Assembly: GCA_016219005.1 (NCBI GenBank)
Contig: JACRCN010000050.1
Location: 1 to 51,533 of the forward strand
Direction: 5' to 3'
Origin: Deltaproteobacteria bacterium
GTDB lineage: Bacteria; Desulfobacterota; Desulfobacteria; Desulfobacterales; SpSt-501
Length of the DNA: 51,533 nt
In this document: one piece after another, positions 13,302 to 26,794 of the stretch
Layout: each line of letters starts with the position of its first letter
Position numbering within the stretch: the stretch's first letter is position 1
The notes under the pieces: model-generated
What the model was told of the DNA's origin: nothing
What the model saw: only the letters and a program-made list of their open reading frames with translations
The model's database searches: none
Translations under genes and position numbers: made by a program

Positions 13302-14183
13302 TCAGAATGGCGGGGAAACCGGAATCCCGGCTGAGAAGCCTTGCTCGGCGGCTTTGATGTCAAGGTGCAGGCTTGCGATCTGCTCCAGCGGAGGGTAGGA
13401 GCGGCGCGCGAGGACCCGGGCGTCCACCGTCTTGATGTATTTCCGGCAGGACGCACAGGCGTCCACGCGGTACTCCGGTTCTTCGTCGCTGTAGAGGAAG
13501 AGCAGGCGTTCTTGATCCCGGTTGCCGCAGAATGGGCACAGGGCCCGCCGCAGGGGCCACTTGTGCCAACAGAAGCTGCAGAAAAGAGACCGTTGGCCGT
13601 CGCCCTCCAGCCAGGACAGGCCGGGGGGGCTGCCGCATATCGGGCAGTATCCCTGCTCCCAGACCGGCGCACCCGTCAGGAAGCCGGAAAGCTGCCGCGC
13701 GCAGCAGCGCAGCGCAGGCCGCAGGCTGTGGTAGAGGAAGAAGGCCAGGGCCTGCGGGTCCACGCCGATGCCCGCGGCGGCCCGCGTCATGCCGGATTCA
13801 TCTTCGTTGAGAAAATCCCGGAAAAGCGGGTCCATCCCTGCACTCTTTAAAGACAGAATCCGGGCGGAGTTGGAAAGCCCGGTCCCGGAATCGACGGCGA
13901 TGCGGCAGATCTTTCCGAGAAGCACGCCGGCCGCGGCCGGGTCATAGGCCATCTCTGAGACCGGCAACAGGGGCAACTGCTCCCGGCGCCGAATGGCGAG
14001 CAGATCCTCCGGAATCACTACCGGCTCCAGCCGGATTCGCTGCCGCGCGTCTTCCTGGGCCGCAAAGATCCGCCCGTAGAATGCGATCAGGTCACGGTAA
14101 GCCGGTTTGGCGGCAATCATCGCCTCCGCCGCCTGGTTCACCGCCTCAGGAGTAATGTCCAGGGACTCTTGCATGCCGGCCAT
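13302..14183 (-). CDS. fdhE: Formate dehydrogenase accessory protein FdhE
   Basis: A 293-residue protein with the FdhE zinc/iron-sulfur knuckles in order: CPICGSPPGLSWL, CSFCWHKW, CPFCGNRD and CASCRKYIKTVD. This is the classical C-terminal rubredoxin-like metal domain. FdhE binds the catalytic subunit of periplasmic formate dehydrogenases and is needed for their maturation before Tat export. It follows fdhA-fdhB on the same strand but is separated from fdhB by a strong intrinsic terminator at 14209-14245, so it is probably made at a lower level by read-through. The start has only a weak ribosome site; ATG 14174 is an alternative. Confidence 0.93.
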   Translation of the reverse strand: MAGMQESLDITPEAVNQAAEAMIAAKPAYRDLIAFYGRIFAAQEDARQRIRLEPVVIPEDLLAIRRREQLPLLPVSEMAYDPAAAGVLLGKICRIAVDSGTGLSNSARILSLKSAGMDPLFRDFLNEDESGMTRAAAGIGVDPQALAFFLYHSLRPALRCCARQLSGFLTGAPVWEQGYCPICGSPPGLSWLEGDGQRSLFCSFCWHKWPLRRALCPFCGNRDQERLLFLYSDEEPEYRVDACASCRKYIKTVDARVLARRSYPPLEQIASLHLDIKAAEQGFSAGIPVSPPF

Positions 14184-14269: not shown

Positions 14270-14989
14270 CTACCCCAGCCGTGCGAAGAGATCCGTGAAC
14301 GGCCGGAACAACCGCTGCATGGCCATCGCGCGCGTCATGTCAAACTCGCGCTGTGAGGCCACCGCATACTCCCAATAGGTGGTCGGCTCGAAGGCGGTGA
14401 GGTAGATCACCCGCACCTTGTCGGGGTTGAGCAGGGTCGCCTTCGGGAACTTGTGCCTGACTTCGGCCAGGCGCACCCGGGCGTACTCCCGCATGTCCTT
14501 GTATTCGCCGAAGTTCATAGTGCCGGTGGGGCAGGCCTTGACGCAGGCCGGCAGCAGGCCGTTGCTCACCCGGTCGTTGCACATGTCGCATTTGGCGAGG
14601 CTGCCGTCCGGCCCCTTGCGCGGGATGTTGTAGGGGCAGGAGGAAATGATGCTGTCGGCATCCAGGTCCTTGGTGACGCGGGTGTAGAGCACGGCGCCGG
14701 TGGCCCTGTCCTTGTAGATGGCGGTCGGCTCGCCGGCGGCCTCCAGGCAGGGCGGCTCCAGGCAGTGCCGGCACTGGTCCGCGAAGAAGAGCCACCTCAG
14801 TTTGTTGTCGATCTCGGCTTCGGTCATGCGCACGAGCTTGTAGGTCGTGAAGTTGAGATCTTCGGGGTTCTGATACGACCCGTGGTTGGTGGTTTTATCG
14901 CCGGGCAGCCCGTGCCATTGCTTGCAGGCAACTTGGCAGCCCCGGCAGGCGGTACAGGTGGTGGTATCAACGAAAAAGGCTTTGGTCAT
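14270..14989 (-). CDS. fdhB: Formate dehydrogenase iron-sulfur (beta) subunit
   Basis: A 239-residue four-cluster ferredoxin-type subunit. The cluster ligands appear as CTACRGCQVAC, CRHCLEPPC, CDMCNDR and CVKACPTG. It pairs with the selenocysteine catalytic subunit encoded 20 bp upstream and passes electrons onward, in Desulfovibrio-type enzymes to a periplasmic cytochrome c3. It has no signal peptide or C-terminal membrane helix, so it should be carried across the membrane with FdhA by the Tat system and remain soluble. The ribosome site GGAGGTGA precedes the start. Confidence 0.95.
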   Translation of the reverse strand: MTKAFFVDTTTCTACRGCQVACKQWHGLPGDKTTNHGSYQNPEDLNFTTYKLVRMTEAEIDNKLRWLFFADQCRHCLEPPCLEAAGEPTAIYKDRATGAVLYTRVTKDLDADSIISSCPYNIPRKGPDGSLAKCDMCNDRVSNGLLPACVKACPTGTMNFGEYKDMREYARVRLAEVRHKFPKATLLNPDKVRVIYLTAFEPTTYWEYAVASQREFDMTRAMAMQRLFRPFTDLFARLG

Positions 14990-15009: not shown

Positions 15010-18000
15010 TCATATCTTCACGATGTTGACCATGAAGGCCTTGGATTCTGGAATGCGGGTGTTGGGATCCCCGGTGGAGGGAGTCAGCAGGTTGACACTC
15101 TCCTCTTTCCCGCTCGCCGGCCAGCGCCAGCCGTAGTGCCAGGGGAAACCGACCTCGTGCACCACGATGTCTGCCAATTTGAACGGCTTGAAGCGCTTGG
15201 TCACGATGGCGGTGCACTCGACCTGGCCCCGGGCCGTGACGGCCTTCACGCGCTCGCCGTTCTTGATCTGCCTGAGGGCCGCCAGTTCCTCGCTCATTTC
15301 CACGAACATCTGGGGCTGCATTTCCATCAACCAGGACTGGTAGCGGGTCATGAGTCCGGTCTGCCAGTGCTCGCTCACCCGGTAGGTGGTGCCCACGTAA
15401 GGAAAGCGCGGGTCGCAGGTCGCGAAAGCGTCGGCCTTGCCGCCCCACACCGGCGCCGTGGGATTGATTCGCTGGGCATTCATGTAGTTCTTCTCCACGG
15501 GGCACTCGAGCGGCTCGTAGTGTTCCGGGAAGGGTCCGTCCTTCAAGCCCGCTCCGAAAATCGTGGCAAAGCCGTGGCGGGTCATGATGAACGGCCACCG
15601 GGCCTTGGCGTTCGGGGATTGCAGGTTTTCCAGGGGGGGCCACGGCCCGTCGGGAACATCGCCCACCCATTTGCTGCCGTCCCACTTGATCACCCAGTCC
15701 TTCGGATCGTAGGGCTGCCCCTGGAGATCGACCGAGGCGCGGTTGTAGATGATGCGCCGGTTGACCGGCCAGGCCCAGGCGAACTCGGGGTACAGGCCGA
15801 TGCCGTTCGGCGCATCCTGCAGGTTGCGGCGGGCGGCCATGTTGCCCTTTTCGGTGTAGCTGCCGCAGTAGACCCAGCAGCCTGAGGAAGTGCTGCCGTT
15901 GGCCTGCAGCAGGCCGAACGTCGGCACCAGGGTTCCCTTCTTGTACACCGTGCCGTCGATGGTGACATCCTCGAGAAAGTAGCCGTTGACCGTCTTGGCC
16001 ACCTTGTGCGGTTCGAATTCACCATGCGAGTCGGCATAATCCCATTTCAGGCCGAGAATAGGCTCGGGGAAGGCCCCGCCTTCTTTTTTGTAAAGTTCCT
16101 TGAGCTTGTTGCCCAGGGCCAGGATGATGTCGCCGTCCGGGCGGCTTTCGCCCAGGGGCTTGGGCCCCTGATAGCGCCACTGCATCCAGCGGCCGCTGTT
16201 GGTAATGCTGCCTTCTTTTTCCACCGAGACGCAGGCCGGCAGCATGAACACCTCGGTCTTGATCTTGGCGGGGTCCATGCCGGGACCGCGCCAGAACGAT
16301 CCGGTCTCGTTGTCGAAGAGATTGACGTTCACCATCCAGTCCAGGTTCTTCATGGCCGCACGGGTTTTGCCGGCGTTCGCCCCGCTGCAGGCCGGGTTCA
16401 TGCCCCAGGCGAAGAACCCTTTGATGCTTCCATTGTACATGGCGTCGAAGAGATCCAGCCAGCTGTAGGCCTTGCCGGCATCCAGTTTGGGCATCCACGG
16501 GTAGCCGAACTCGTTGTTCGCCGTGGCGGCATCGCCGAAGTAGGCCTTGAGCAGGCTTACCATGTACTTGGGTTCGTTCTGCCACCAGTTGGCGCTCAGC
16601 GGGTCGCTGCTCTTGGGCCGGCGCTTCAGGTAGTCCTCGAGCTTCGGCCAGTTGGTGGCCGGGGTTGCGATGTAGCCGGGCAGGATGTGGAACAACAGCC
16701 CGTGGTCGGTGGAGCCCTGGACGTTGGACTCCCCGCGCAGCGCATTCACGCCGCCGCCCGCCACCCCCATGTTGGCGAGCAGCGTCTGGATGATGGACAT
16801 GGCGCGGATGTTCTGGACGCCGACGGTGTGCTGGGTCCAGCCCATGGCGTACATGATAGTGCCGGCCTTGCCCTTGGCGCCGGTGGCGGCATAGGCCTTG
16901 TAGACCTCCAGCAGATCCTTCTTCGGGGTGCCGGTGATCTTGGAGACCTGATCCGGGGCGTAACGGGAGTAATGGGTTTTGAGCAGCTGAAACACGCAGC
17001 GTTTGTCCTGGAGCGTCAAATCCTTCTTGGGGACACCGCTCGCATCCAGCTGGTAGGTCCACTTGCTCGCGTCGTAGGCCCGCTTGCCTGCGTCGTAGCC
17101 CGAATACAGCCCGTCCTTGAAATCGAATCCATCACCGACCAGAAAGGAGGCATCCGAGTAAGCGACAACGTCCGCCTCATTGTAAAGCTTATTGTCAATG
17201 ATGTACTTGATCATGCCGCCCAGGAAGGCGATGTCCGTCCCGGAACGCAGGGGCGCGTAAATGTCCGCTTTGGCGGAGGTCCGGGTGAAGCGGGGGTCCA
17301 CGCTGATGAGCTTGCCCCCCCGGCTCTGGGCCTCGGTGACGTATTTCATGGAAATGGGGTGGTTCTCGGCAGCGTTGCTGCCCATGATCAGAATGCAGTC
17401 GCTGTTTTTAAGGTCGATCCAGTGGTTGGTCATCGCGCCGCGTCCGAACGACTCTGCCAGAGCCGCTACAGTCGCGCTGTGTCAGATACGGGCCTGGTGC
17501 TCGATGTAGACCAGCCCCATCGCACGCAGCATGGCCTGGTAGGCCCAGCACTCCTCGTTGTCCAGCGCGGCACTGCCCACCGAGGCGATGGCCTCGGTGC
17601 GGTTGACGCTCTCGCCCCTGGTGTTCTTGACCATGAAAGTGGCATCGCGCGTGGCCTTGACCCGCTTCGCGATGTTTTCAAGTGCCCAGTCCCAGGACAC
17701 CGGCTTCCATTCCTTTGCGCCGGGCGCCCGATACATGGGCCGGGTCAGTCGCTGCTTGTTTTCCGCCAGCTGGTGCAGGGAAGAACCTTTGGAGCAGAGT
17801 GACCCGCGGTTGATGACGTGGTCCGGGTCGCCCTCGATGTTGATGACCCGGCCATCCTTCTGGCTGGTGGATACGATGGCCCCGCAGCCCACCGCGCAGT
17901 AGGGACAAATCGTGGTCGTCTCCTTGGCGGATTTGGTCCGAAGCTCCTTGGCGTGAGCCACGACCGGAGTAAGATCGGATCCCAGGCCGCTGAATGCCAC

Positions 18001-18054
18001 GCCTGCGGCGGCGGCACCCGTAACCCGGGCAAACTGCCTGCGTGTCAGATTCAT
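15010..18054 (-). CDS. fdhA: Periplasmic formate dehydrogenase catalytic (alpha) subunit, selenoprotein
   Basis: A 1014-residue molybdo/tungsto-bis-MGD enzyme that oxidises formate to CO2. The reading frame is interrupted by an in-frame TGA at 17482-17484 (residue 191) in the context HQARI-Sec-HSATVAAL. This is the exact place where selenocysteine ligates the metal in FdnG/FdhA, so the two open halves are one gene. It begins with a Tat signal (MNLTRRQFAR, cleavage near VVAHA). The [4Fe-4S] ligands are in CPYCAVGC and SLCSKG. The C-terminal MGD-binding domain is present. Length and lack of a membrane subunit match the soluble periplasmic enzyme of Desulfobacterota. First gene of fdhABE; AGGAG precedes the start. 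Confidence 0.96.
17448..17475 (-). promoter_or_regulatory. Candidate bacterial SECIS hairpin in fdhA
   Basis: Six bases after the UGA codon, GCGACU can pair with AGUCGU (five Watson-Crick pairs and one G-U) around a 16-base loop that holds GGCUCU. Bacterial SECIS elements lie in this place and bind SelB. The pairing was read by eye, so the exact fold is uncertain. Confidence 0.6.
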
Positions 18055-18374: not shown

Positions 18375-18983
18375 TCACATTTTCAAATAGTTATTAATTG
18401 CTCCCAAAGTGGATGGAAGCGGCTCATAGGGGGCCTGGCCTTGGCAGCCTTTGCAGATCCTGCCATCGCAAGTCGGATAGGCTTCTCCGCACATCGGGCA
18501 GAAATCGACCTTTTCCTTGTGCTGCTTGCCAAGAAAACGAGCCGCGATTCGAATCGGCGCAACCACACACAGCCCTTCTCCGGCTTCCCGGATCTGCTCC
18601 TGCAACAGTGCGGAATCCTGGTCCTGCTTTTTGTTCAGGCACAAGAACCATACTTTGATTGCCGGCCATGCGTCGAGCCTCTTCCCATCAAGGTGCACCC
18701 GGACGCCTTCACCGCTTCTTTTGTCGTAGAGACTCAAGGCATACCGGCCGAGGTTCAACACTTTCAGCCACCCGTTGCCCACGGTGCATGGAGTCAACAA
18801 CTGTATGGCATCCGGCAGGCAGGCGCGGGTCTCACTGACCGCATCGTAAAGCACACCCTGAGTAAGGTTCCGCTGTGCCAAGGCGACCATATACCCGCCA
18901 ATGATAACCCCGGGTGCGGCATAGCCGTGGAAATCGACGACTCGTTCAACGAATTCATCAACGCTGTAAGGTCCGATGGACAC
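18375..18983 (-). CDS. FmdE-family protein with C-terminal zinc ribbon
   Basis: A 202-residue member of the formylmethanofuran dehydrogenase subunit E family. The N-terminal block SVDEFVERVVDFHGYAAPGV and LLTPCTVGNGWLKVLNLGRY are characteristic, with His and Cys residues expected to bind metal. The C-terminus has a TraR/DksA-like ribbon, CPMCGEAYPTCDGRICKGC. I chose the GTG at 18983, preceded by GGAAGG, because homologues begin at this point; an in-frame ATG at 19049 is possible. In bacteria these proteins often sit near molybdenum/tungsten enzymes. Here it lies just upstream of fdhABE, which suggests a link to formate dehydrogenase or its cofactor, but no reaction is established. Confidence 0.85.
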   Translation of the reverse strand: MSIGPYSVDEFVERVVDFHGYAAPGVIIGGYMVALAQRNLTQGVLYDAVSETRACLPDAIQLLTPCTVGNGWLKVLNLGRYALSLYDKRSGEGVRVHLDGKRLDAWPAIKVWFLCLNKKQDQDSALLQEQIREAGEGLCVVAPIRIAARFLGKQHKEKVDFCPMCGEAYPTCDGRICKGCQGQAPYEPLPSTLGAINNYLKM

Positions 18984-19349
18984 AATTCCGATCCTTCCGC
19001 CCACAGTTTCGCTCTGGTTGCCGCAGGCGGACAATGCCGGCCGCGGCAATTACTGCGTCCTGAATCCAAAGTGAAGGATATCGCCTGGCGGATACCGAAC
19101 ATGTGCGGGATGTCCGTTTTCCAGGCGCTCCAAGGCCAAGCGTACAGCATTGGGCGAAGTGGAAAATAGCATGTCGGGCATGGTTTTTCTACAGCTTTCG
19201 TAGCGATGCAAGGTAAGAGGTGTTCAATGGAAAATGTGTCAACAGCAAAAAATAAGCGGAGGGCTGTGCATTTGGTCAAGGTCGATGCGGCAGGCTGGCT
19301 TTGACCGGAGCGTTCCGGGAGAACAACAGACCGCAAATGCCCGGGTGAA
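18984..19349. other. 366-bp gap with one doubtful small open frame
   Basis: No recognisable gene lies between the lipoprotein stop and the FmdE-family start. A 43-codon frame on the minus strand (19050-19181, starting MPDMLFSTSPNAVRLALERL) has a protein-like composition but no ribosome site. It could be a decayed gene fragment, a small protein or chance. No strong terminator or promoter was found. Confidence 0.4.
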
Positions 19350-19685
19350 CTAGGGAGTCGCTTTGCGCAGCGAGAGCGCTCCGACTCCGGGCAACTCGAG
19401 GGTCAGCGCTTGTTGCCCGGGCACGGGTTGAGCAACCATCACTCCCCCGGTCTTGAGGTGCAGCCACAGGGCGTTGCTGCGTTCTTCCCAGCGCAGAGGA
19501 GTGCTTTCCTGTTCAGCCGTCCACTGCCCTTTGCCGCCGGCTTGAAGGGTCAGCGCGACTGTGCCGGCCGGGTCTTGCCCGGGCGGCCCCACATAACGGC
19601 CCTCCCATGAAGACCTGGACTCGCACGCCCAGATCAGCAAACCGATCAGCAGCAGCGGCGCCAGCAGCCGGTGTGCCTGCCTCAT
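19350..19685 (-). CDS. Small exported protein, probable lipoprotein
   Basis: A 111-residue protein with an N-terminal signal (MRQAHRLLAPLLLIGLLIWA) ending at a Cys, giving a weak lipobox (LIWAC). The mature part is beta-rich and has no motif I recognise; it ends in ALTLELPGVGALSLRKATP. The start codon overlaps the stop of the MauE/DoxX gene as ATGA, so it is the last gene of the redoxin / GAF-rhodanese / MauE operon. It probably works in the periplasm with those proteins. The start is fixed by the overlap rather than by a ribosome site. Confidence 0.65.
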   Translation of the reverse strand: MRQAHRLLAPLLLIGLLIWACESRSSWEGRYVGPPGQDPAGTVALTLQAGGKGQWTAEQESTPLRWEERSNALWLHLKTGGVMVAQPVPGQQALTLELPGVGALSLRKATP

Positions 19686-20167
19686 CCTTCCACCTCCTGC
19701 AGGGATTTGAGAAGCCTGCCTTCCAGCTGCAGGGCTGAGGGGAAAAAATAAACATGAAGCGTCATGATGAGCCACACGAGATCGCGTCCGAGAGTGCCCC
19801 AGCCCAGGGGCTCCTCCACCGACGTGAAACACCCGCACCCGATGGGGATGCCCCGCAGCAGCGTGGCCAGGACCGCCAGGCTGAACATCACCAGCATCCC
19901 GCCGATCGCAGCCGCCGCGGATTTGGTGCGAACACCGAGAACCATCAGAATGCCGCTGACCAGCTCGGCCCACGGCATGACCAGCGCCATGAGGTTCACC
20001 GCCCAAAACGGCACCAGCTGGTAGCTAGCGATGGTTTCGGCGAACTCGCCGGGGTAGTTGATCTTGTACATGCTGGCGTAGATGAAAATCCCGCCGACGT
20101 AAGCGCGCAGCAGCAGGCCCAGCACGGGGTGGGCGATCGATGTCTTAAACCAGCCGGGCCATTTCAT
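19682..20167 (-). CDS. MauE/DoxX-family redox-associated membrane protein
   Basis: A 161-residue membrane protein with four hydrophobic helices. Family marks include RAYVGGIFIYASMYKINYPG, FAETIASYQLVP and the GIPIGCGCF motif, which carries two cysteines at the membrane surface as in MauE. MauE-type proteins support disulfide formation or electron transfer in the periplasm; DoxX relatives serve in quinone-linked redox. The gene overlaps both neighbours by ATGA junctions (20167 with the GAF/rhodanese gene, 19682 with the lipoprotein). Together with the redoxin two genes upstream, it suggests a thiol-redox relay across the inner membrane. Confidence 0.85.
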   Translation of the reverse strand: MKWPGWFKTSIAHPVLGLLLRAYVGGIFIYASMYKINYPGEFAETIASYQLVPFWAVNLMALVMPWAELVSGILMVLGVRTKSAAAAIGGMLVMFSLAVLATLLRGIPIGCGCFTSVEEPLGWGTLGRDLVWLIMTLHVYFFPSALQLEGRLLKSLQEVEG

Positions 20168-21906
20168 GGCGCCACCGGAAATCCTTTCTCTTCCCAGGCC
20201 GCGACCCCTCCCTCCAGGACCCGGACATGGTCGTGGCGCTGCAAAAGTCGCTGGGTCACATCTTCGTCATAGCGCTTGCTGATGGTGCGGCCGTAGACAA
20301 ACACCGTCTGCTCGGGTTTGAGCGTGCGCCCGAGCTGCATGGGGTAGATCACGTCAAACAGCGGCGCCGGGATGTTGACGGCCTCGGCAATGTGCTTCTG
20401 TTGAAAAAGCTCAGGCGGCCGGGCATCCACCAGCACCGCCTCGCCCCGGGTCAGCAGTTCGTGCGCGGTGAGCACATCGACCCGGGGGGCTTGCTCTTGG
20501 AAAACAGCTTCCGGCACAACGGGGATGCCGTTCGGGCTGGAATAGTTGAATGCCAGCGCCAAAACAGCGGACAGGATCGCCATCAGCAGCATATCGGCCG
20601 CGCGGAAGCCCCCGGCCCGCTCGGTCTCGCGCTGGATGAGCTGTTTCAGCCGGCTTTTAGCGAACTCCAGCCCCCGTATCCGGTGGCGGGCCTCGGTCAG
20701 GTCGGTAATGGTCTGCCGCAGGTCCGCGTTGGTACGAGCCAGGTCCGCATTGAGGGTCTGGATGGTTTCAAACGCCCGGGCGTTTTTCAGAAACACCATG
20801 CAGTTGGCCGTCAATCCCCGCAAGAGTTCCCGCGCCTCCGCGGACAGCGCCGTTTGGCTCAAGGAAGGGCCGAGGGCGAGCATGCCGAGCAGCGTGTCGT
20901 CCACCGTGAACAGCGCCGCGGTGTGGACGCCAAACCCGAGCTCGGATTCGGGGAAGACAGACGGCGGGTCGAGGATGAAACCGGTCGACATCGGTGCAAG
21001 GCGTCGCTCCTCGGTCGCCTGGAACCCGCGGTAAAGGATTTTTTCAGCCCCTGCGAGGGTCCACTCCCGCGGCCCGGGGATTCCGCGACCGGCGGAACGG
21101 ACCGTCCCGCTCTGCCGGTCGCAGAGCAGAACGCATCCCCGGCTCGCCCCGAAGGTGCCCATCACCATCAGCAGGAATGCCTCCAACAGCTTGTCGGTCG
21201 CGACGAGCGGGCTCAGCTCGGCGGTGAACTCATAGAGGGTCTGCAGATGAAAGATCTGCCGGTCCAGGGTCGCGCGCGCCCTGCCGGCCTGACGCTGGGC
21301 ATCCTGAAGCTCATTGCCCTGGCGTATCAAGCCGGCACTGAGATGCTGGATCTGACGGTGGAACAAGTTCTGCGCCAGGGCGTTGGCCATCGTTCCGGCC
21401 AGGTTGAGCAGGGCCGTCATATCCGCCTCGCCGAAAGACTCCCCAGAGAGCCTGGGCCCGATGGCCGACAGCAGCGCATAGTTGCCGTCCAGCCTTTGTT
21501 TGAGAATGACCGCGGTGTCAGCCGGCAAGAGCCCCGGTTCCGCGGTTTGCCCTGGCAGGACGAATTCGGCATGACAAGGCAGGCTGTCTTCGGGCAGGTA
21601 GTGTTCGGCAATGCGGGCCAGGTTGCGTTCGCAGGCGTCGGCCTCGGGTCCGCTGAGCCCCCGCTGGGTGAGATGCCCCTGACGAGTCTGGGCGTTCATC
21701 AGGATGGCCAGCCCGCGGGTCGCCCCGAACAGGCCCATGGCGGTGAGCAGAAAGGTCTCCATGATCTTGCGGGGCTGGGTGAGGCCGGAGAGTTCGCAGG
21801 CGACGTCATGCAGGGTTTTCAGGTGAAATACCCGCTTATCGAGATCTGCCTGAGCCCGGGAGGCACGCGCAATGGCTTCCCGTAAAGTGGATTCCGCGAG
21901 GGTCAT
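20164..21906 (-). CDS. Tandem GAF - coiled coil - TM - degenerate rhodanese protein
   Basis: A 580-residue fusion. Two similar GAF-like units (about residues 23-185 and 214-375) look like a duplication: LDKRVFHLKTLHDVACELS in the first aligns with LDRQIFHLQTLYEFTAELS in the second. A coiled coil follows (about 380-430), then one membrane helix (437-454) and a rhodanese-like domain (474-580, with LVDARPPELFQQKHI and LEGGVAAWEEKGFP). The rhodanese loop reads VFVYGRTISKRY and lacks the catalytic cysteine, so sulfur transfer is unlikely. Basic residues before the helix place the GAF domains in the cytoplasm and the rhodanese in the periplasm. It is translationally coupled to MauE and lies 5 bp after the redoxin gene. 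Probably a redox sensor or scaffold; function unknown. Confidence 0.8.
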   Translation of the reverse strand: MTLAESTLREAIARASRAQADLDKRVFHLKTLHDVACELSGLTQPRKIMETFLLTAMGLFGATRGLAILMNAQTRQGHLTQRGLSGPEADACERNLARIAEHYLPEDSLPCHAEFVLPGQTAEPGLLPADTAVILKQRLDGNYALLSAIGPRLSGESFGEADMTALLNLAGTMANALAQNLFHRQIQHLSAGLIRQGNELQDAQRQAGRARATLDRQIFHLQTLYEFTAELSPLVATDKLLEAFLLMVMGTFGASRGCVLLCDRQSGTVRSAGRGIPGPREWTLAGAEKILYRGFQATEERRLAPMSTGFILDPPSVFPESELGFGVHTAALFTVDDTLLGMLALGPSLSQTALSAEARELLRGLTANCMVFLKNARAFETIQTLNADLARTNADLRQTITDLTEARHRIRGLEFAKSRLKQLIQRETERAGGFRAADMLLMAILSAVLALAFNYSSPNGIPVVPEAVFQEQAPRVDVLTAHELLTRGEAVLVDARPPELFQQKHIAEAVNIPAPLFDVIYPMQLGRTLKPEQTVFVYGRTISKRYDEDVTQRLLQRHDHVRVLEGGVAAWEEKGFPVAP

Positions 21907-21911
21907 GCTGT

Positions 21912-22469
21912 TCAGCGCACCAGGTCGTTGATCAGTTTAAGAAATGCGTCTATGTCCTCGATGATTCCCATGTGGGTGTACAGGACCTTGCCCTGCGGGT
22001 CGACGAGCAGGGTGAAGGGGGTGCGGGGCTCTCCGAGCAGCTTGTGGACATCGAAGCGCGGGTCCGGGACAATCGGGAAGCTGTACTGGACCTGATCGTA
22101 AAGGTATTGGATCTCGTTGACGTTTCCGCCGGCGGCGAGCGCCAGCATCTTGACCTGACCCTTCAGCTTGCCTTTTTCGATCCGGTTGAACAGGGTATTG
22201 AACAGGGGCGCCTGCCGGTAGCACTGCGGGCAGTAGACGCCGATGACTTCAAGCAGCAGCAAACGGCAGGGGATATCCGCCAGCCGAAAAATGGCCTGGC
22301 TGATGCCGAGGTATTCCCGGGCCTTGTCGGAGGCCGGCGCCTGGAGCTCGAAAGCCGGAAGGGTATCGCCCTTCTTGGGCAGGCCGGCGCACCAGGCCGC
22401 CCCGGCAGCACTTGTCCACAAGATGCCGATCACGGGGAGTACATTCAGGATAAACCGCAAGGGTTTCAT
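21912..22469 (-). CDS. Periplasmic thioredoxin-like redoxin (TlpA/AhpC-TSA type)
   Basis: A 185-residue exported protein. The ATG at 22469 has AAGGGGG just upstream and starts a signal peptide (MKPLRFILNVLPVIGILW, then an A-rich end near AWCAG). The fold is thioredoxin-like: the N-terminal GDTLPAFELQAP of redoxins, the active-site motif GVYCPQCYRQAPLFN (CxxC) and a cis-Pro segment, EPRTPFTLLVDPQGKVLY. It is the first gene of the operon with the GAF-rhodanese protein, MauE and the lipoprotein. It probably reduces or oxidises a partner disulfide outside the membrane, with MauE as a likely electron partner. A TTG five codons upstream is an unlikely alternative start. Confidence 0.85.
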   Translation of the reverse strand: MKPLRFILNVLPVIGILWTSAAGAAWCAGLPKKGDTLPAFELQAPASDKAREYLGISQAIFRLADIPCRLLLLEVIGVYCPQCYRQAPLFNTLFNRIEKGKLKGQVKMLALAAGGNVNEIQYLYDQVQYSFPIVPDPRFDVHKLLGEPRTPFTLLVDPQGKVLYTHMGIIEDIDAFLKLINDLVR

Positions 22470-22587: not shown

Positions 22588-23295
22588 TCATGCCAGCGCC
22601 TTCTCCAGAGAGTCCACCACGGCCACGATTTTCGAAAGCCCTACGATTTCAAACACTTTTCTTAGATTCTCGGACAGCTCGGCCACCACCACCTGGCGGC
22701 CTTGTTTCTGGCTATCCAAAAGAAGCTGGGTCAGGATGGCAATCCCGGCGCCGTTGATGGCGGCGCTCTCCAGAAAGTGCAGCACGATGCGGGGTCTGTT
22801 GAGCGCCAGGGCCTCCTGGTAAAGGGCCTGAAAGCGTGCTTCGGCTTTGGCAGTGATGTTGCCCTGAATCACGATCACGGCGGCCTGGTCGGTCGGCTGG
22901 AGGACCATTTCCGTCGCCTGCGTGCCTGCCAGGCGCCGGCGCTCCTGCGCGCGCTTGATCGCCTGCTCAAGCAGATGGCGTTGGATGGGTTTGTTGATGA
23001 AATCGGTGGCATCCAGGTTCAGTGCCTGGATAGCCAGGTCCATGTCGCCGTGACCGGTAATGACGATGACCTCTGTGGACGGGTCGATCGTCTTGACTTG
23101 CTTCAGCACCTCGATGCCGTTCATGCCGGGCATCTTGATGTCGGTCAGAACGATGCTGGGGCGTTCGCGGCCGAAGACCTCCAATCCCTCCTGGCCGTTT
23201 TCCGCCGTCAGCACCTCGTAACCGTACGCGGCCAGCGTCAACCGAAACATCATCAACGTGGGTTTCTCATCGTCGATGACCAAAATCTTGTCCAT
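22588..23295 (-). CDS. Response regulator with REC and STAS domains
   Basis: A 235-residue two-domain protein. The receiver domain (about 1-120) has DDE at residues 8-10, the phosphorylation Asp in VLTDIKMPGMNG (residue 52) and the Lys in INKPIQ. The C-terminal half (about 133-235, AAVIVIQGNITAKAEARFQA to KIFEIVGLSKIV-like positions) resembles a STAS/anti-sigma-factor-antagonist fold, with SAAINGAGIAILTQLLLDSQ where the switch Ser/Asn region lies. There is no DNA-binding domain, so output is probably by protein contact. It lies 147 bp downstream of the histidine kinase gene and is its likely partner. Confidence 0.8.
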   Translation of the reverse strand: MDKILVIDDEKPTLMMFRLTLAAYGYEVLTAENGQEGLEVFGRERPSIVLTDIKMPGMNGIEVLKQVKTIDPSTEVIVITGHGDMDLAIQALNLDATDFINKPIQRHLLEQAIKRAQERRRLAGTQATEMVLQPTDQAAVIVIQGNITAKAEARFQALYQEALALNRPRIVLHFLESAAINGAGIAILTQLLLDSQKQGRQVVVAELSENLRKVFEIVGLSKIVAVVDSLEKALA

Positions 23296-23442: not shown

Positions 23443-25461
23443 TCATGTCGCGGCAAATCTGAGCTTGAAGGTCGTGCCCTGGCCAACCTGGCTCGTCAGT
23501 TGAATGTCGCCTCTGTAGTCCTTGACGATTCCATACGTGATGGCCAACCCGAGGCCCATGTCGATGCTGCTTTCTTTGGTGCTGAAAAACGGCTCGAAAA
23601 TCTTGTCCCGGACCGCATCGCTGATGCCGATGCCGTCGTCTTCGACCTCGGCCACCACGTGCTCGCCCTCCTGATAGGTACGAATGAGGATCTTGCCGTC
23701 CGCCCGGCCGGGCAGTCGTTGCTTCTTTTCGCTGATGGCATCACGCGCATTGGTGACCAGGTTGAAGAACACCTGCTGCAGCCGGTTGTCGTGCGCCATG
23801 ATGGTGCGGATCCCCTGGGCGAGATCCAGCTCCATGCGGATGTTCTCCAGCTCGAACTGGCGGCCGACCAGGGAAAAAACCGCCTGGATGGGTTTGTTGA
23901 TGTCCACCCGCTCCATGACGAGTTCAGCCTTGCGGCCGAAGGAGCGCAGGGTGTTGATGATCTCGGCCGCCCGGTCGACCTGGGTGCTCATCTCGGTGAC
24001 TACCTGGCGCAGGTCCTGCGGCGGAATCTCGCGCTGCTGCTCAACCATCATGGCCAGGAAATCGCTGCCCATCTTGATGGCGTTGAGCGGCTGGTTCAAC
24101 TCGTGGGCGATGCCGGCGGACATTTCTCCAAGAGACCCCATCTTGCTCGCCTGGATCAACCGGGCGTCCTTTTCGATCATCTCGGTGATGTCGGTCGAGG
24201 CCAGCACGATGGCCTGCTGCCCCTTGTAGGCGATGGTGCTGGCATGCAGGTTGACGTAGAAAGGCGTGTGGCCTTTCTTGTAATGCAGCGCCTTGGGGTA
24301 GGTGACCAACCCGTGGGCTTCCCCCTTGCTCTGAAGGGATTGAAAGTACTCGTGCGTGTGTTCGGGGGCCAGCTCCGTGAAAGCCTTGCCGATCAGCTCC
24401 TCCCGGCTGTACCCGTAGACCTCCACGGCCCGCGGGTTGGCGTCGATGATTTCGAAGGTCTGGGGGTTGACGACGAAGATGGGATCCGGGCCGCTGTCGA
24501 AGAGGGAGCGGTATTTCTTCTCGGATTCGCGCAGGCGCCGCCGGTAAAGCCGGATGCTCCAGATCATGTTGTAAAAGGCATCCGCCAGCTGGGCCACCTC
24601 GTCGCCCTTTTGACGTCTGTAGGACCGGCAGTCCCGGCACACGGGGTCGGTGCCTGAAATCTCATCGACGCCATCCACGACGGCCAACTCCCCATCCAGG
24701 CGCCGGCAGGGTACATCGGGGTTGGCGAAGGCCGGGCATTCCAGGGGTTGGCCGGCATCCGTCCCTTGCTCCGCGTCCAGTTTCACATCGAAGTTGCCCT
24801 TGCTCAACTCGTCCGAAATCCGGGTGAGCTTGGAGATCGGCATGGTGATGTATTTGGATAGGCGGTGGGTTATGACGAAAATGATCACGACCACCAGTGA
24901 CAGAAACCCCAGAAACGTGGTCCGCAGCTTGCCGACCAGCTGGTCGATATGGTCTTTGTTGAGCCCAACGTGCACGGTGCCGATGCGATAGATCCCCTGG
25001 GTGATGGGGATGGCGATGTCGTAGGCCATCTGGCTCCCGATCAGACACAGGCGCACGCTTTTGGTCTCATCCGGCGGGACCCGGTTCGCCAGGCGCAGGG
25101 ACTCGGGGAAGGGTCGCGTCAGGGTATGGCTGAGGACCTGGTCCTCGCGGCCGCTGACAAAGATGTAGGAGACCAGGTGCTGGCGCTCCTTGAGTTTGGC
25201 CTCGTCGAAGATCAGGCTGAGCAGCTCGGGATAGTTCTTGTCGAGAAGGTAACCGCTGCTGCGCTCGGCGATCGTCCGGCCGATCGCGATGCCCCGCAGC
25301 TCAAGCTCGTCGATCAGGTTGTCCACCAGGATCCAGCGCGCCATCAGGGCAATGGCGGCGCTGATGATCAGGATGACCGCAATGATGGAGAAGAAGATCT
25401 TGTTCTTTAGGCTGATATCGCGAAAGCGTTTGGCGGTTTCCCGGATGACATCGCGGTTCAT
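23443..25461 (-). CDS. Membrane sensor histidine kinase with HAMP (Cys-rich insert), PAS and HATPase domains
   Basis: A 672-residue kinase. TM1 is at about 22-44 and TM2 at 182-198, enclosing a periplasmic sensor of about 135 residues. HAMP follows, but between FDVKLDAEQ and KGDEVAQLADAFYNM it carries a ~50-residue insert with Cys at 242, 252, 275 and 278 (CPAFANPDVPC and CRDC), like a degenerate two-CW metal or redox module. Then come PAS (about 315-430), the phospho-acceptor His 453 in AGIAHELNQPLNAIK, and the ATPase with N-box NLVTNARDA, DDGIGI and GLGLAI. It starts 7 bp after the binding-lipoprotein gene and precedes the REC-STAS gene, so the three probably form one signalling unit. Confidence 0.9.
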   Translation of the reverse strand: MNRDVIRETAKRFRDISLKNKIFFSIIAVILIISAAIALMARWILVDNLIDELELRGIAIGRTIAERSSGYLLDKNYPELLSLIFDEAKLKERQHLVSYIFVSGREDQVLSHTLTRPFPESLRLANRVPPDETKSVRLCLIGSQMAYDIAIPITQGIYRIGTVHVGLNKDHIDQLVGKLRTTFLGFLSLVVVIIFVITHRLSKYITMPISKLTRISDELSKGNFDVKLDAEQGTDAGQPLECPAFANPDVPCRRLDGELAVVDGVDEISGTDPVCRDCRSYRRQKGDEVAQLADAFYNMIWSIRLYRRRLRESEKKYRSLFDSGPDPIFVVNPQTFEIIDANPRAVEVYGYSREELIGKAFTELAPEHTHEYFQSLQSKGEAHGLVTYPKALHYKKGHTPFYVNLHASTIAYKGQQAIVLASTDITEMIEKDARLIQASKMGSLGEMSAGIAHELNQPLNAIKMGSDFLAMMVEQQREIPPQDLRQVVTEMSTQVDRAAEIINTLRSFGRKAELVMERVDINKPIQAVFSLVGRQFELENIRMELDLAQGIRTIMAHDNRLQQVFFNLVTNARDAISEKKQRLPGRADGKILIRTYQEGEHVVAEVEDDGIGISDAVRDKIFEPFFSTKESSIDMGLGLAITYGIVKDYRGDIQLTSQVGQGTTFKLRFAAT

Positions 25462-25468
25462 GGCCGGC

Positions 25469-26794
25469 TCAACGTGATGCGTTCAACTGGGCCCTGATCC
25501 CTGCCCAGTCTTTGATCAGAGAAAACTGCCCGTTTTCGAGTCGGGTGAAATGGACGCGATCCAGCCCCTGGTGATCGCTTGCGCTGAAGGCGATGTTGAT
25601 GTCCAGTCCCAGAGCCAGATCATGGATCGATTCGATGGCGTCGATGAACCCCTCCCGGGTGAGTTCCGCACCGGCCCGCTTGAGGCCTTCGACCAGCACC
25701 CGTGCGTTGATGAACCCCTCGAAGCCAACGAAGTTGGGCTGGTCTTCCGGGTAGTAGCGCTTGAGCAGCGTGACGTAGCCGAGCTCGCCGGTCAGCAGCG
25801 GGCTGGGGTCTTGGCGGTCGGGGGGCGGGACCACCTGCGACATGACGACCGTTATGCCCTGCTGGTTTTCAAGCCGCCGGGCCAGTTCATCGGCCCCGAC
25901 GAAGGACACCAGGTAAAACAAGGGCCGGAAGCCCTGTTCATGGGCCAGCCGGATGAATTTGGCGCACGGGTCGTAGGTGCCGATCATCACAACGGCCTCG
26001 GCCCCGGAGGACATGATCTTGTTCAGGCCTTCCTGCACATCCAGCGTGCCGCGGTTGTAAGAGCCCCCGGCGACCGGCGCCAGATTGAATCGCTTCAGGG
26101 CCAACTCCGTCCCCGTCAGGCCGTCAAAGCCGTAGGCGTCGTACTGGTAGAAAACGGCGATCTTATTCAACCCCAGGTCGTCGACCAGGTGCCGGACGGC
26201 GTCACCGGTCTCCTGGTAATAGGAGGCCCGGACGTTGATCAGGAAGCGGCTGAACGGCTCGCGCAGGGCGTTGGCGCCGGTGAACATGCCCAGGAGCGGG
26301 ATGCGTGCTTCCTCGATGAGGGGCAGCACCTTGACCGTCGTGGGGGTTCCCACGTAGCAAAACAGGGCAAACACCTGATCGTCGATGATGAGCTTCTGGG
26401 TGTTCGCCAGGCACATGGGAGGATCGTAGCTGTCGTCATAGGCCACCACCTTGATGCTGCGGCCGTGAACCCCTCCCAGTTCGTTGACGTGGTTGAGATA
26501 GCACATGGCGCCGCGAAACGTCTGGCTGCCCAGAAAACTGGCGTGTCCCTTAAGCGCCAGGGACGAACCCAGAACGACCTCCTGAGTCGTCACACCCGGG
26601 CTGCCGGTCTCCAGGGCCGCTTTCTCATCCGGGGATTGGCATCCCGTCACCAGGAAACCCAAACAGAGAATCACAATGCTTCCCAAGTAGAGCATCGAAC
26701 GCAAAAGAACACCTTTTGGGCCGAGTTGGGCAGAAGCAGAACTGGCTGCTATTGTCAGTACAAGGAATCGTGGGTTTGATTGAAGCGCATTCAT
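25469..26794 (-). CDS. Periplasmic binding lipoprotein, branched-chain amino-acid (LivJ-like) family
   Basis: Up to 441 residues. A hydrophobic signal ends in the lipobox VTGC, and the mature domain is a type I periplasmic binding fold: VVLGSSLALKGHASFLGSQT, YLNHVNELGGVHGRSIKVVA and YDDSYDPPMCLANTQKLI are typical of LivJ/AmiC-like proteins. The start is uncertain. ATG 26794 leaves 33 residues before the hydrophobic core, while GTG 26710 or ATG 26695 give a more normal signal; none has a clear ribosome site. No ABC permease or ATPase gene is nearby. The histidine kinase gene begins 7 bp later, so it likely serves as an extracellular ligand sensor for that kinase. Confidence 0.8.
   Translation of the reverse strand: MNALQSNPRFLVLTIAASSASAQLGPKGVLLRSMLYLGSIVILCLGFLVTGCQSPDEKAALETGSPGVTTQEVVLGSSLALKGHASFLGSQTFRGAMCYLNHVNELGGVHGRSIKVVAYDDSYDPPMCLANTQKLIIDDQVFALFCYVGTPTTVKVLPLIEEARIPLLGMFTGANALREPFSRFLINVRASYYQETGDAVRHLVDDLGLNKIAVFYQYDAYGFDGLTGTELALKRFNLAPVAGGSYNRGTLDVQEGLNKIMSSGAEAVVMIGTYDPCAKFIRLAHEQGFRPLFYLVSFVGADELARRLENQQGITVVMSQVVPPPDRQDPSPLLTGELGYVTLLKRYYPEDQPNFVGFEGFINARVLVEGLKRAGAELTREGFIDAIESIHDLALGLDINIAFSASDHQGLDRVHFTRLENGQFSLIKDWAGIRAQLNASR

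Follow-up and report, generated by a model that had tools for sequence, protein, structure and literature searches.

A conserved bacterial gene cluster in which cytoplasmic sensors may control a periplasmic thiol-redox couple through a cysteine-less rhodanese fold

What purpose is served by a protein that holds sensory domains in the cytoplasm and, across a single membrane helix, a rhodanese fold that has lost its reactive cysteine? The question is raised by an operon at positions 19350-22469 of contig JACRCN010000050.1 (assembly GCA_016219005.1), from a Deltaproteobacteria bacterium of the Desulfobacterales; the 51,533 nucleotides of this stretch are the window analyzed here. Its four genes encode a periplasmic redoxin, a 580-residue GAF-GAF-transmembrane (TM)-rhodanese protein, a MauE/DoxX membrane protein and a small lipoprotein, and the gene cluster to which they belong is conserved and apparently undescribed in bacteria. 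The products are proposed, with confidence a shade below even, to form a membrane module whose cytoplasmic sensor controls a thiol-redox couple in the periplasm, a neighbouring formate dehydrogenase (FDH) being one likely client. If this is true, the cytoplasm governs the thiol redox state beyond the membrane via a catalytically dead enzyme domain, and the disulfide switch of periplasmic CO2-reducing FDHs, enzymes studied for CO2 conversion, gains a candidate physiological partner.

An initial annotation, made from the window's letters alone, described four genes overlapping by ATGA or lying 5 bp apart. This is exact: all are on the minus strand, the redoxin and rhodanese genes are separated by 5 bp, and the rhodanese/MauE and MauE/lipoprotein pairs each overlap by ATGA. 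Chance and assembly error, the latter a concern already voiced for the central fusion, are excluded as origins because the arrangement is conserved across many genomes, with relatives recurring throughout the phylum. At order level, 91 of 291 genomes gave some match (E≤1e-6) to the 580-residue protein, in many cases to its GAF or its rhodanese part alone; the loci taken from this search comprise wide regions around the strong matches plus L063-L066, the four examined among those weaker than E 1e-24. At phylum level, a TM-rhodanese profile matched 60 of 395 sampled genomes at E≤1e-16. The Cys-less TM-rhodanese is present in 37 of the 395: all 37 matches below 1e-28 are of this kind, the match in genome G313 at 1.2e-28 is Cys-bearing, and examination between 1e-28 and 1e-16 covered L134 (1.2e-28), L135 and L136. 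L003 and L005, on contigs of identical length, were treated as one contig, of which only L003 is counted; a contig scan with the window protein as query found that one locus, and a search for plasmid-borne homologues found none.

A cysteine-less rhodanese fold, and its membrane partners

The predicted layout of the central protein, a duplicated cytoplasmic GAF pair joined by a coiled coil and one helix to a periplasmic rhodanese, is supported by an internal duplication and by a structural model (mean pLDDT, the predicted local distance difference test, of 84) in which both the tandem GAF and the rhodanese folds find matches. Pfam places the GAF domains below threshold (GAF_3, 17.3 bits against 27), and E≤0.01 for GAF is reached by only one of 19 proteins, the window's own. 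The two halves are 43% identical over 79 aa (E 1e-18), a stretch that takes in the coiled coil and reaches into the beginning of each GAF, and the model resembles the tandem GAF structures of PDE5A (3mf0) and PDE2A (3ibj and 1mc0). The GAF assignment is weak by sequence and firm by the modelled fold. Basic residues precede the TM helix on the GAF side.

The rhodanese domain scores 47.4 bits in Pfam against a cut-off of 22.2 and superposes on GlpE (1gmx) with Z 14.3 and 2.7 A over 104 residues. In profile alignment, the Gly of its YGRTIS loop falls on the catalytic Cys of 6mxv. Relatives share this replacement: in an alignment of 73 TM-rhodanese domains (L050 left out; L037 kept with its C-terminus cut off), 69 rows are Cys-less and four Cys-bearing, and the Cys-less rows hold Gly at the catalytic position in 69 of 69, flanked by Tyr(-1) in 68, Arg(+1) in 46, Ser(+4) in 69 and Asp(+8) in 66. 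A separate comparison of relatives left out L066, a cyclase, and L037 and L050, both truncated. A substitute cysteine elsewhere in the domain was considered and rejected, 45 of the 69 domains having no Cys and a further 20 having it solely within the TM helix or bordering it; four (L130-L133) carry one in the periplasmic part. Gly in every row and the lack of any Cys outside the helix in 65 mark the domain as a conserved pseudo-enzyme that can carry no thiol itself. The rhodanese is, as far as the alignment can tell, a conserved and selected non-catalytic domain. The absence of the active-site cysteine noticed in the window is thus general to these relatives. A second suggestion, a thiol relay, survives in part: the redoxin CxxC and the MauE CGC could exchange electrons, but a relay through the rhodanese is excluded by the same 65 Cys-less periplasmic domains.

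Relatives with an intact rhodanese cysteine and no link to MauE and redoxin, named beforehand as evidence against the assembly, did not turn up: the four Cys-bearing relatives examined adjoin MauE too. L063, L064, L065 and L134 have the same TM-rhodanese beside MauE and align through the loop without gaps; they differ in keeping Cys(0) and Cys(+5) in all four (YCxxxxC) and in that no sensor, redoxin or lipoprotein was found there. Two further loci, L135 and L136, from another family (f88), encode next to MauE a short, sensorless TM-rhodanese that is Cys-less. Their placement in the tree with the Cys-bearing rows is weakly supported (84/73); the cysteine may have been lost more than once. A Cys-less loop with YGR also occurs in the second rhodanese repeat of E. 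coli YnjE, which differs in having three rhodanese repeats in the profile alignment and in being a soluble protein without a sensor or MauE.

The membrane partner matches the MauE family (PF07291) with 86 bits against a cut-off of 27, and DoxX with 38.9 against 23.6; a search by sequence for a solved structural relative found none. The CGC motif is present in every MauE relative that reaches that point, and is missing only where L058 and L105 meet a contig end. The redoxin keeps its CxxC in all aligned relatives (window included, L036 left out); its profile scores fall below the cut-offs (AhpC-TSA 25.7 bits, just below 26; ResA model 40.3 against 170). In L036 redoxin and rhodanese share a single frame, which is treated as an assembly artefact rather than a natural fusion because ambiguous bases lie at the join. 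The lipoprotein has no Pfam or NCBIfam match, and it is found at 56 of 60 GAF, cyclic nucleotide-binding domain (cNBD) and fusion loci with room for it.

That the products act as one assembly, as was proposed, is supported by the conserved gene order and by natural rhodanese-MauE fusions in a single chain, found at 13 loci that form one clade (support 100/100). The MauE part of two scanned fusions scores 81.4 and 74.9 bits. An additional hydrophobic stretch precedes the four of MauE, and the basic PPVRRSP and GIRTR loops alternate with the CGC loop; helix positions were taken from a model of the fusion (pLDDT 67). This alternation would put the CGC, rhodanese, redoxin and lipoprotein on the periplasmic side. 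Redoxin is missing from the fusion loci, whose lipoproteins carry a C-x4-C pair in 13 of 13 (L117-L129), as does that of the sister locus L111, as if it were a substitute thiol partner. Because L111 and the fusions form one clade (100/98), the pair may have been gained in a single event. It is absent from the lipoproteins of the redoxin-less cNBD loci L097, L099 and L110. Downstream of the lipoprotein, a conserved, secreted-looking protein of about 400 aa (L129:10641-11852; the scanned copy has no Pfam match) is encoded at 14 loci, namely 11 of the 13 fusion loci, L097, L099 and L111.

Exchangeable sensors on a constant core

The cytoplasmic half is not always GAF. One TM-rhodanese is joined to GAF-GAF in 22 loci (23 with the truncated L050), to a single GAF in six and to a cNBD in 22; in 13 more the cNBD protein is fused with MauE in one chain, which brings the loci with a cNBD instead to 35, and in six there is no sensor. 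Loci were classed by N-terminal length, apart from L036, L037 and L058, which were classed by hand. Pfam confirms the cNBD in three of three proteins scanned, and the FGE...R cassette of canonical cNBDs is retained in 30 of 34 (L058 left out), by which the domain probably binds ligand. In the tree of these domains, all cNBD rows fall on one side of a branch with support 90/99, and the six architecture classes need seven changes, against a minimum of five and 41.7 for shuffled labels. From sequence and model, the sensor is joined to the Cys-less rhodanese fold by one predicted TM helix throughout, with a coiled coil as well in the GAF forms.

Each sensor keeps its own company. Counting loci at which a gene was found or had room within 4.5 kb on the same strand, the GAF types are accompanied by a periplasmic binding protein (PBP) in 22 of 25, a histidine kinase (HK) in 25 of 27, a receiver-STAS response regulator (RR-STAS) in 27 of 28, redoxin in 28 of 28, MauE in 26 of 27 and the lipoprotein in 24 of 27. 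At cNBD loci, PBP (0/17), HK (0/19) and RR-STAS (0/21) are absent, and redoxin (17/22), MauE (22/22) and lipoprotein (19/20) are kept. Fusion loci have no PBP (0/10), HK (0/12), RR-STAS (0/13) or redoxin (0/13), with MauE (13/13, fused) and lipoprotein (13/13) invariably present. Sensorless loci have MauE in 6/6, redoxin in 4/6 and lipoprotein in 0/6; Cys-bearing loci have MauE in 4/4 and redoxin, lipoprotein and RR-STAS each in 0/4. MauE is therefore a near-constant partner of the rhodanese, absent among loci with room only from L049, and RR-STAS tracks the sensor (27/28 GAF loci against 0/34 cNBD loci, fusions included). The four genes first described are a core; in the window, as in nearly all GAF-type relatives, the unit extends past 22469 to include the PBP, HK and RR-STAS genes (26794-22588), and this larger cluster often lies beside a selenocysteine (Sec) FDH. 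L040 lacks the PBP, and L045 lacks both PBP and HK.

The response regulator retains its phospho-Asp in 27 of 27 relatives. No DNA-binding domain was found in the window copy with Pfam, which suggests that its output is probably protein contact. The STAS part was compared with SpoIIAA at the SpoIIAA phosphosite: where aligned SpoIIAA has Asp-Ser-Ser-Gly, the relatives have Asn-Gly/Ser-Ala-Gly (Asn-Gly-Ala-Gly in the window), with Asn and Ala each in 27 of 27. Judged by this motif change, conventional phosphorylation on Ser is unlikely.

GAF goes strictly with RR-STAS and cNBD with no such partner, while the TM-rhodanese-MauE core stays constant; these gene patterns are best read as exchangeable inputs feeding a constant periplasmic output. 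The opposite direction has also to be considered. Redoxin, MauE and pseudo-rhodanese could read the redox or sulfur state of the periplasm and relay it by way of the TM helix to GAF or cNBD, and from there to RR-STAS, an outside-in sensor that would suit a protein modelled as spanning the membrane with domains on each side and the cytoplasmic RR-STAS beside 27 of 28 GAF forms. As a rule, however, GAF and cNBD serve for input and lack an output activity of their own, and the cNBD forms have no RR-STAS nearby to receive a signal (0/34). The same GAF cassette, moreover, precedes a cyclase: GAF 2 plus the coiled coil is 32% identical over 234 aa to the class III cyclase protein of L066, which favours an input role. 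A rhodanese without its reactive Cys is also ill suited to sensing, and outside-in signalling is considered improbable. The L066 protein (L066:6390-7682) has its GAF-coiled coil N-terminal to a class III nucleotidyl cyclase domain, and other GAF matches of about 430 aa from the order-level search may be similar GAF-cyclase proteins.

Chemistry and client of the module

For the direction, chemistry and client of the module we infer the following. The periplasmic CGC of MauE would exchange electrons with the quinone pool on one side and the redoxin CxxC on the other, and the rhodanese fold, its chemistry lost, would sit between the TM signal and MauE as a docking or gating element. Signalling would run inside-out, from HK through phosphorylated RR-STAS to the GAF-coiled coil in the GAF forms, and from a cyclic nucleotide to the cNBD in the others. 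The redoxin would set the disulfide state of periplasmic clients, of which the neighbouring Sec-FdhAB, with a D. vulgaris relative activated by reduction of a surface disulfide, would be a likely one in GAF-type clusters. A general inside-out gated redox module of this kind is put at an even balance. That FDH is its client is somewhat unlikely, and the fullest version, a new class of inside-out signalling by swappable receptors with a pseudo-rhodanese actuator and a quinone-linked MauE/redoxin valve that switches FDH and other clients by disulfides, is slightly more doubtful again.

A search to 10 kb on either side finds FDH genes (A, B or E) at 12 of 29 GAF loci, and at 10 of the 16 that have at least 7.5 kb on both sides. 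For the other classes the counts are 1 of 22 (cNBD), 0 of 13 (fusion), 2 of 6 (sensorless) and 0 of 4 (Cys-bearing). FDHA alone, called at HMM scores above 60 bits, is near 11 GAF loci against about 0.15 expected; the expectation assumes the author's round 1.5 FDHA per 4 Mb, and the loci compared are not independent. One locus on a short contig, L034, has the 5' half of fdhA at the contig edge and stands outside the linkage count. With at most two candidates scored per genome, 196 of the 395 phylum genomes (50%) have FDHA among the matches listed, as do, of the 37 with the Cys-less TM-rhodanese, 9 of 9 with the GAF type, 4 of 4 sensorless ones of g155 and 15 of 24 with cNBD or fusion; kinship confounds this comparison. 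L130 and L131 share the arrangement fdhA-fdhB-fdhE-rhodanese-MauE-redoxin-carbonic anhydrase and have neither HK nor RR, which ties the core itself to FDH and CO2 chemistry. The carbonic anhydrase was identified by Pfam in L131, with a Tat signal below cut-off.

The closest match of the window FdhA is D. vulgaris FdhAB (9qm0, 6sdr), and its in-frame TGA marks it as a Sec enzyme of the same type. It keeps both switch cysteines, at positions 845 and 872 as counted in that alignment; C845 is the disulfide partner of C872. An FdhAB of this type is a possible client, not a relative of the module. In the portions of the literature consulted, a disulfide switch controls FdhAB activity, with the C872A variant a mimic of the active state (PMC11134731), and the resting, O2-stable state has the disulfide, whose reduction gives full activity (PMC13397495). 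Those portions of the two papers name no physiological reductant, and the word thioredoxin is absent from 300,000 of the 334,378 characters of the second (PMC13397495).

Several observations weigh against the proposed module and its client. Both switch cysteines are present in all 42 distinct FDHA sequences, 13 linked and 29 fetched regardless of linkage (L137, the window's own FDHA, counted once); they were accordingly rejected as a discriminating test and are compatible evidence only. Linkage to FDH is mostly confined to GAF loci, where an HK/RR pair that regulates FDH could explain it instead; FDH can therefore not be the client everywhere. The redoxin is missing from all 13 fusions and from five of the 22 cNBD loci; among these five, a lipoprotein with C-x4-C occurs in L111 alone. 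L049 has no MauE; L049, L051 and L052 have no lipoprotein; L052 also lacks PBP, HK and RR-STAS; and in L100 a distance of 2.5-3.4 kb separates the redoxin and MauE genes from that of the rhodanese. The GAF pockets show little conservation across relatives, with only three invariant GAF 2 positions (G250, G341 and L345) among those aligned. The fusion model was too weak as docking evidence and was discarded for that use. Finally, the rows share ancestry, and counts are not independent events.

The regulatory account holds that PBP-HK-RR control FDH expression and that the redoxin operon is tied to FDH only through them. It gains from L042, L047, L049, L103 and L106, where PBP-HK-RR lie between FDH and the redoxin operon, but the RR has no DNA-binding domain that could be found, and in L130/L131 and L056 FDH is linked to the core although PBP-HK-RR are missing; it is judged quite unlikely. 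Similarly low is the probability that the genes form an unregulated or mainly assembly-type maturation module, in which redoxin and MauE would make or rearrange disulfides in periplasmic metalloenzymes such as FDH, with the sensor protein a mere scaffold. MauD and MauE have such a place in methylamine dehydrogenase clusters, where a four-TM MauE with CGC likewise stands beside a TlpA-like redoxin, and the MauE match at 86 bits, the adjoining redoxin, the FDH neighbours and the direct fdhABE-rhodanese-MauE-redoxin order of L130/L131 all fit. The window operon differs in adding the sensor-TM-pseudo-rhodanese and the lipoprotein, and its frequent neighbour is FDH (no search for MauA or MauB was made). 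A maturation module would leave three sensor kinds and the strict pairing of sensor and partner unexplained, as well as the fusions that lack a redoxin.

A review (PMC7662651) describes a thiosulfate-oxidising, membrane-associated oxidoreductase complex of M. tuberculosis in which DoxX is the scaffold for SseA and SodA. The window shares with it a DoxX/MauE-family membrane protein and a rhodanese-fold partner. SseA is a rhodanese. A relative of that complex acting in thiol or sulfur detoxification is nevertheless very improbable, since the window-type rhodanese lacks the catalytic Cys in 69 of 69 and, anchored in the membrane with sensors fused to it on the cytoplasmic side, is no catalytic partner, its company is redoxin, lipoprotein and RR-STAS, SodA was not recognised among the neighbour clusters read (no SodA-directed search was made), and DoxX and MauE are related but distinct families. 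The supposition that the composition has no described counterpart agrees with searches of the open-licence PMC literature, among whose listed papers no such system was found, absence there not being absence from print.

Gene layout and further observations

On the minus strand, the order of transcription is PBP, histidine kinase, receiver-STAS, redoxin, GAF-GAF-TM-rhodanese, MauE and lipoprotein, followed downstream by an FmdE-like gene, fdhA, and the fdhB-like and fdhE-like genes (Table 1).

Table 1. Position and identification of genes and domains of the cluster in the window
Feature	Coordinates	Strand	Basis
Periplasmic redoxin, ResA/TlpA-like, CPQC at residues 80-83	21912..22469	-	CxxC in 28/28
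GAF-GAF-coiled coil-TM-pseudo-rhodanese, 580 aa	20164..21906	-	Pfam, model
GAF 1, about residues 25-190	21337..21834	-	Model; 3cit Z 14.3 over residues 17-190
GAF 2, about residues 212-383	20758..21273	-	Model, fold match, L066 similarity
Single TM helix, residues 436-456	20539..20601	-	Model helix, pLDDT low locally
Periplasmic rhodanese-like domain, residues 470-580	20167..20499	-	Pfam PF00581; GlpE Z 14.3
YGRTISKRYD in place of catalytic Cys loop	20266..20295	-	Alignment of 69
MauE/DoxX 4-TM protein; CGC at 19829-19837	19682..20167	-	Pfam
Small lipoprotein, no recognised family; lipobox ends LIWAC	19350..19685	-	Read from sequence
Receiver-STAS response regulator, phospho-Asp retained	22588..23295	-	Pfam
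sCache-PAS histidine kinase, HAMP below cut-off	23443..25461	-	Pfam
Periplasmic binding protein, Peripla_BP_6	25469..26794	-	Pfam
FdhA, selenocysteine formate dehydrogenase, in-frame TGA, putative client	15010..18054	-	Closest to 9qm0, 6sdr
FdhB-like Fe-S subunit	14270..14989	-	Match below NCBIfam cut-off
FdhE-like accessory protein	13302..14183	-	Match below NCBIfam cut-off

The FmdE-family protein between lipoprotein and fdhA (18375-19049, minus strand) scores 115.8 bits in Pfam and has a zinc finger. Promoter and terminator scans gave signal no higher than in shuffled sequences. Genome G003 holds two copies of the cluster (L034 and L035), with proteins 70% and 68% identical to that of the window. 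Among cNBD-type modules, L061 has a cytochrome b (Pfam) and a Rieske-like protein (by reading) directly downstream (L061:10691-12522), and an acyl-CoA dehydrogenase gene adjoins the modules of L055, L059, L061 and L062 (Pfam on the L055 copy).

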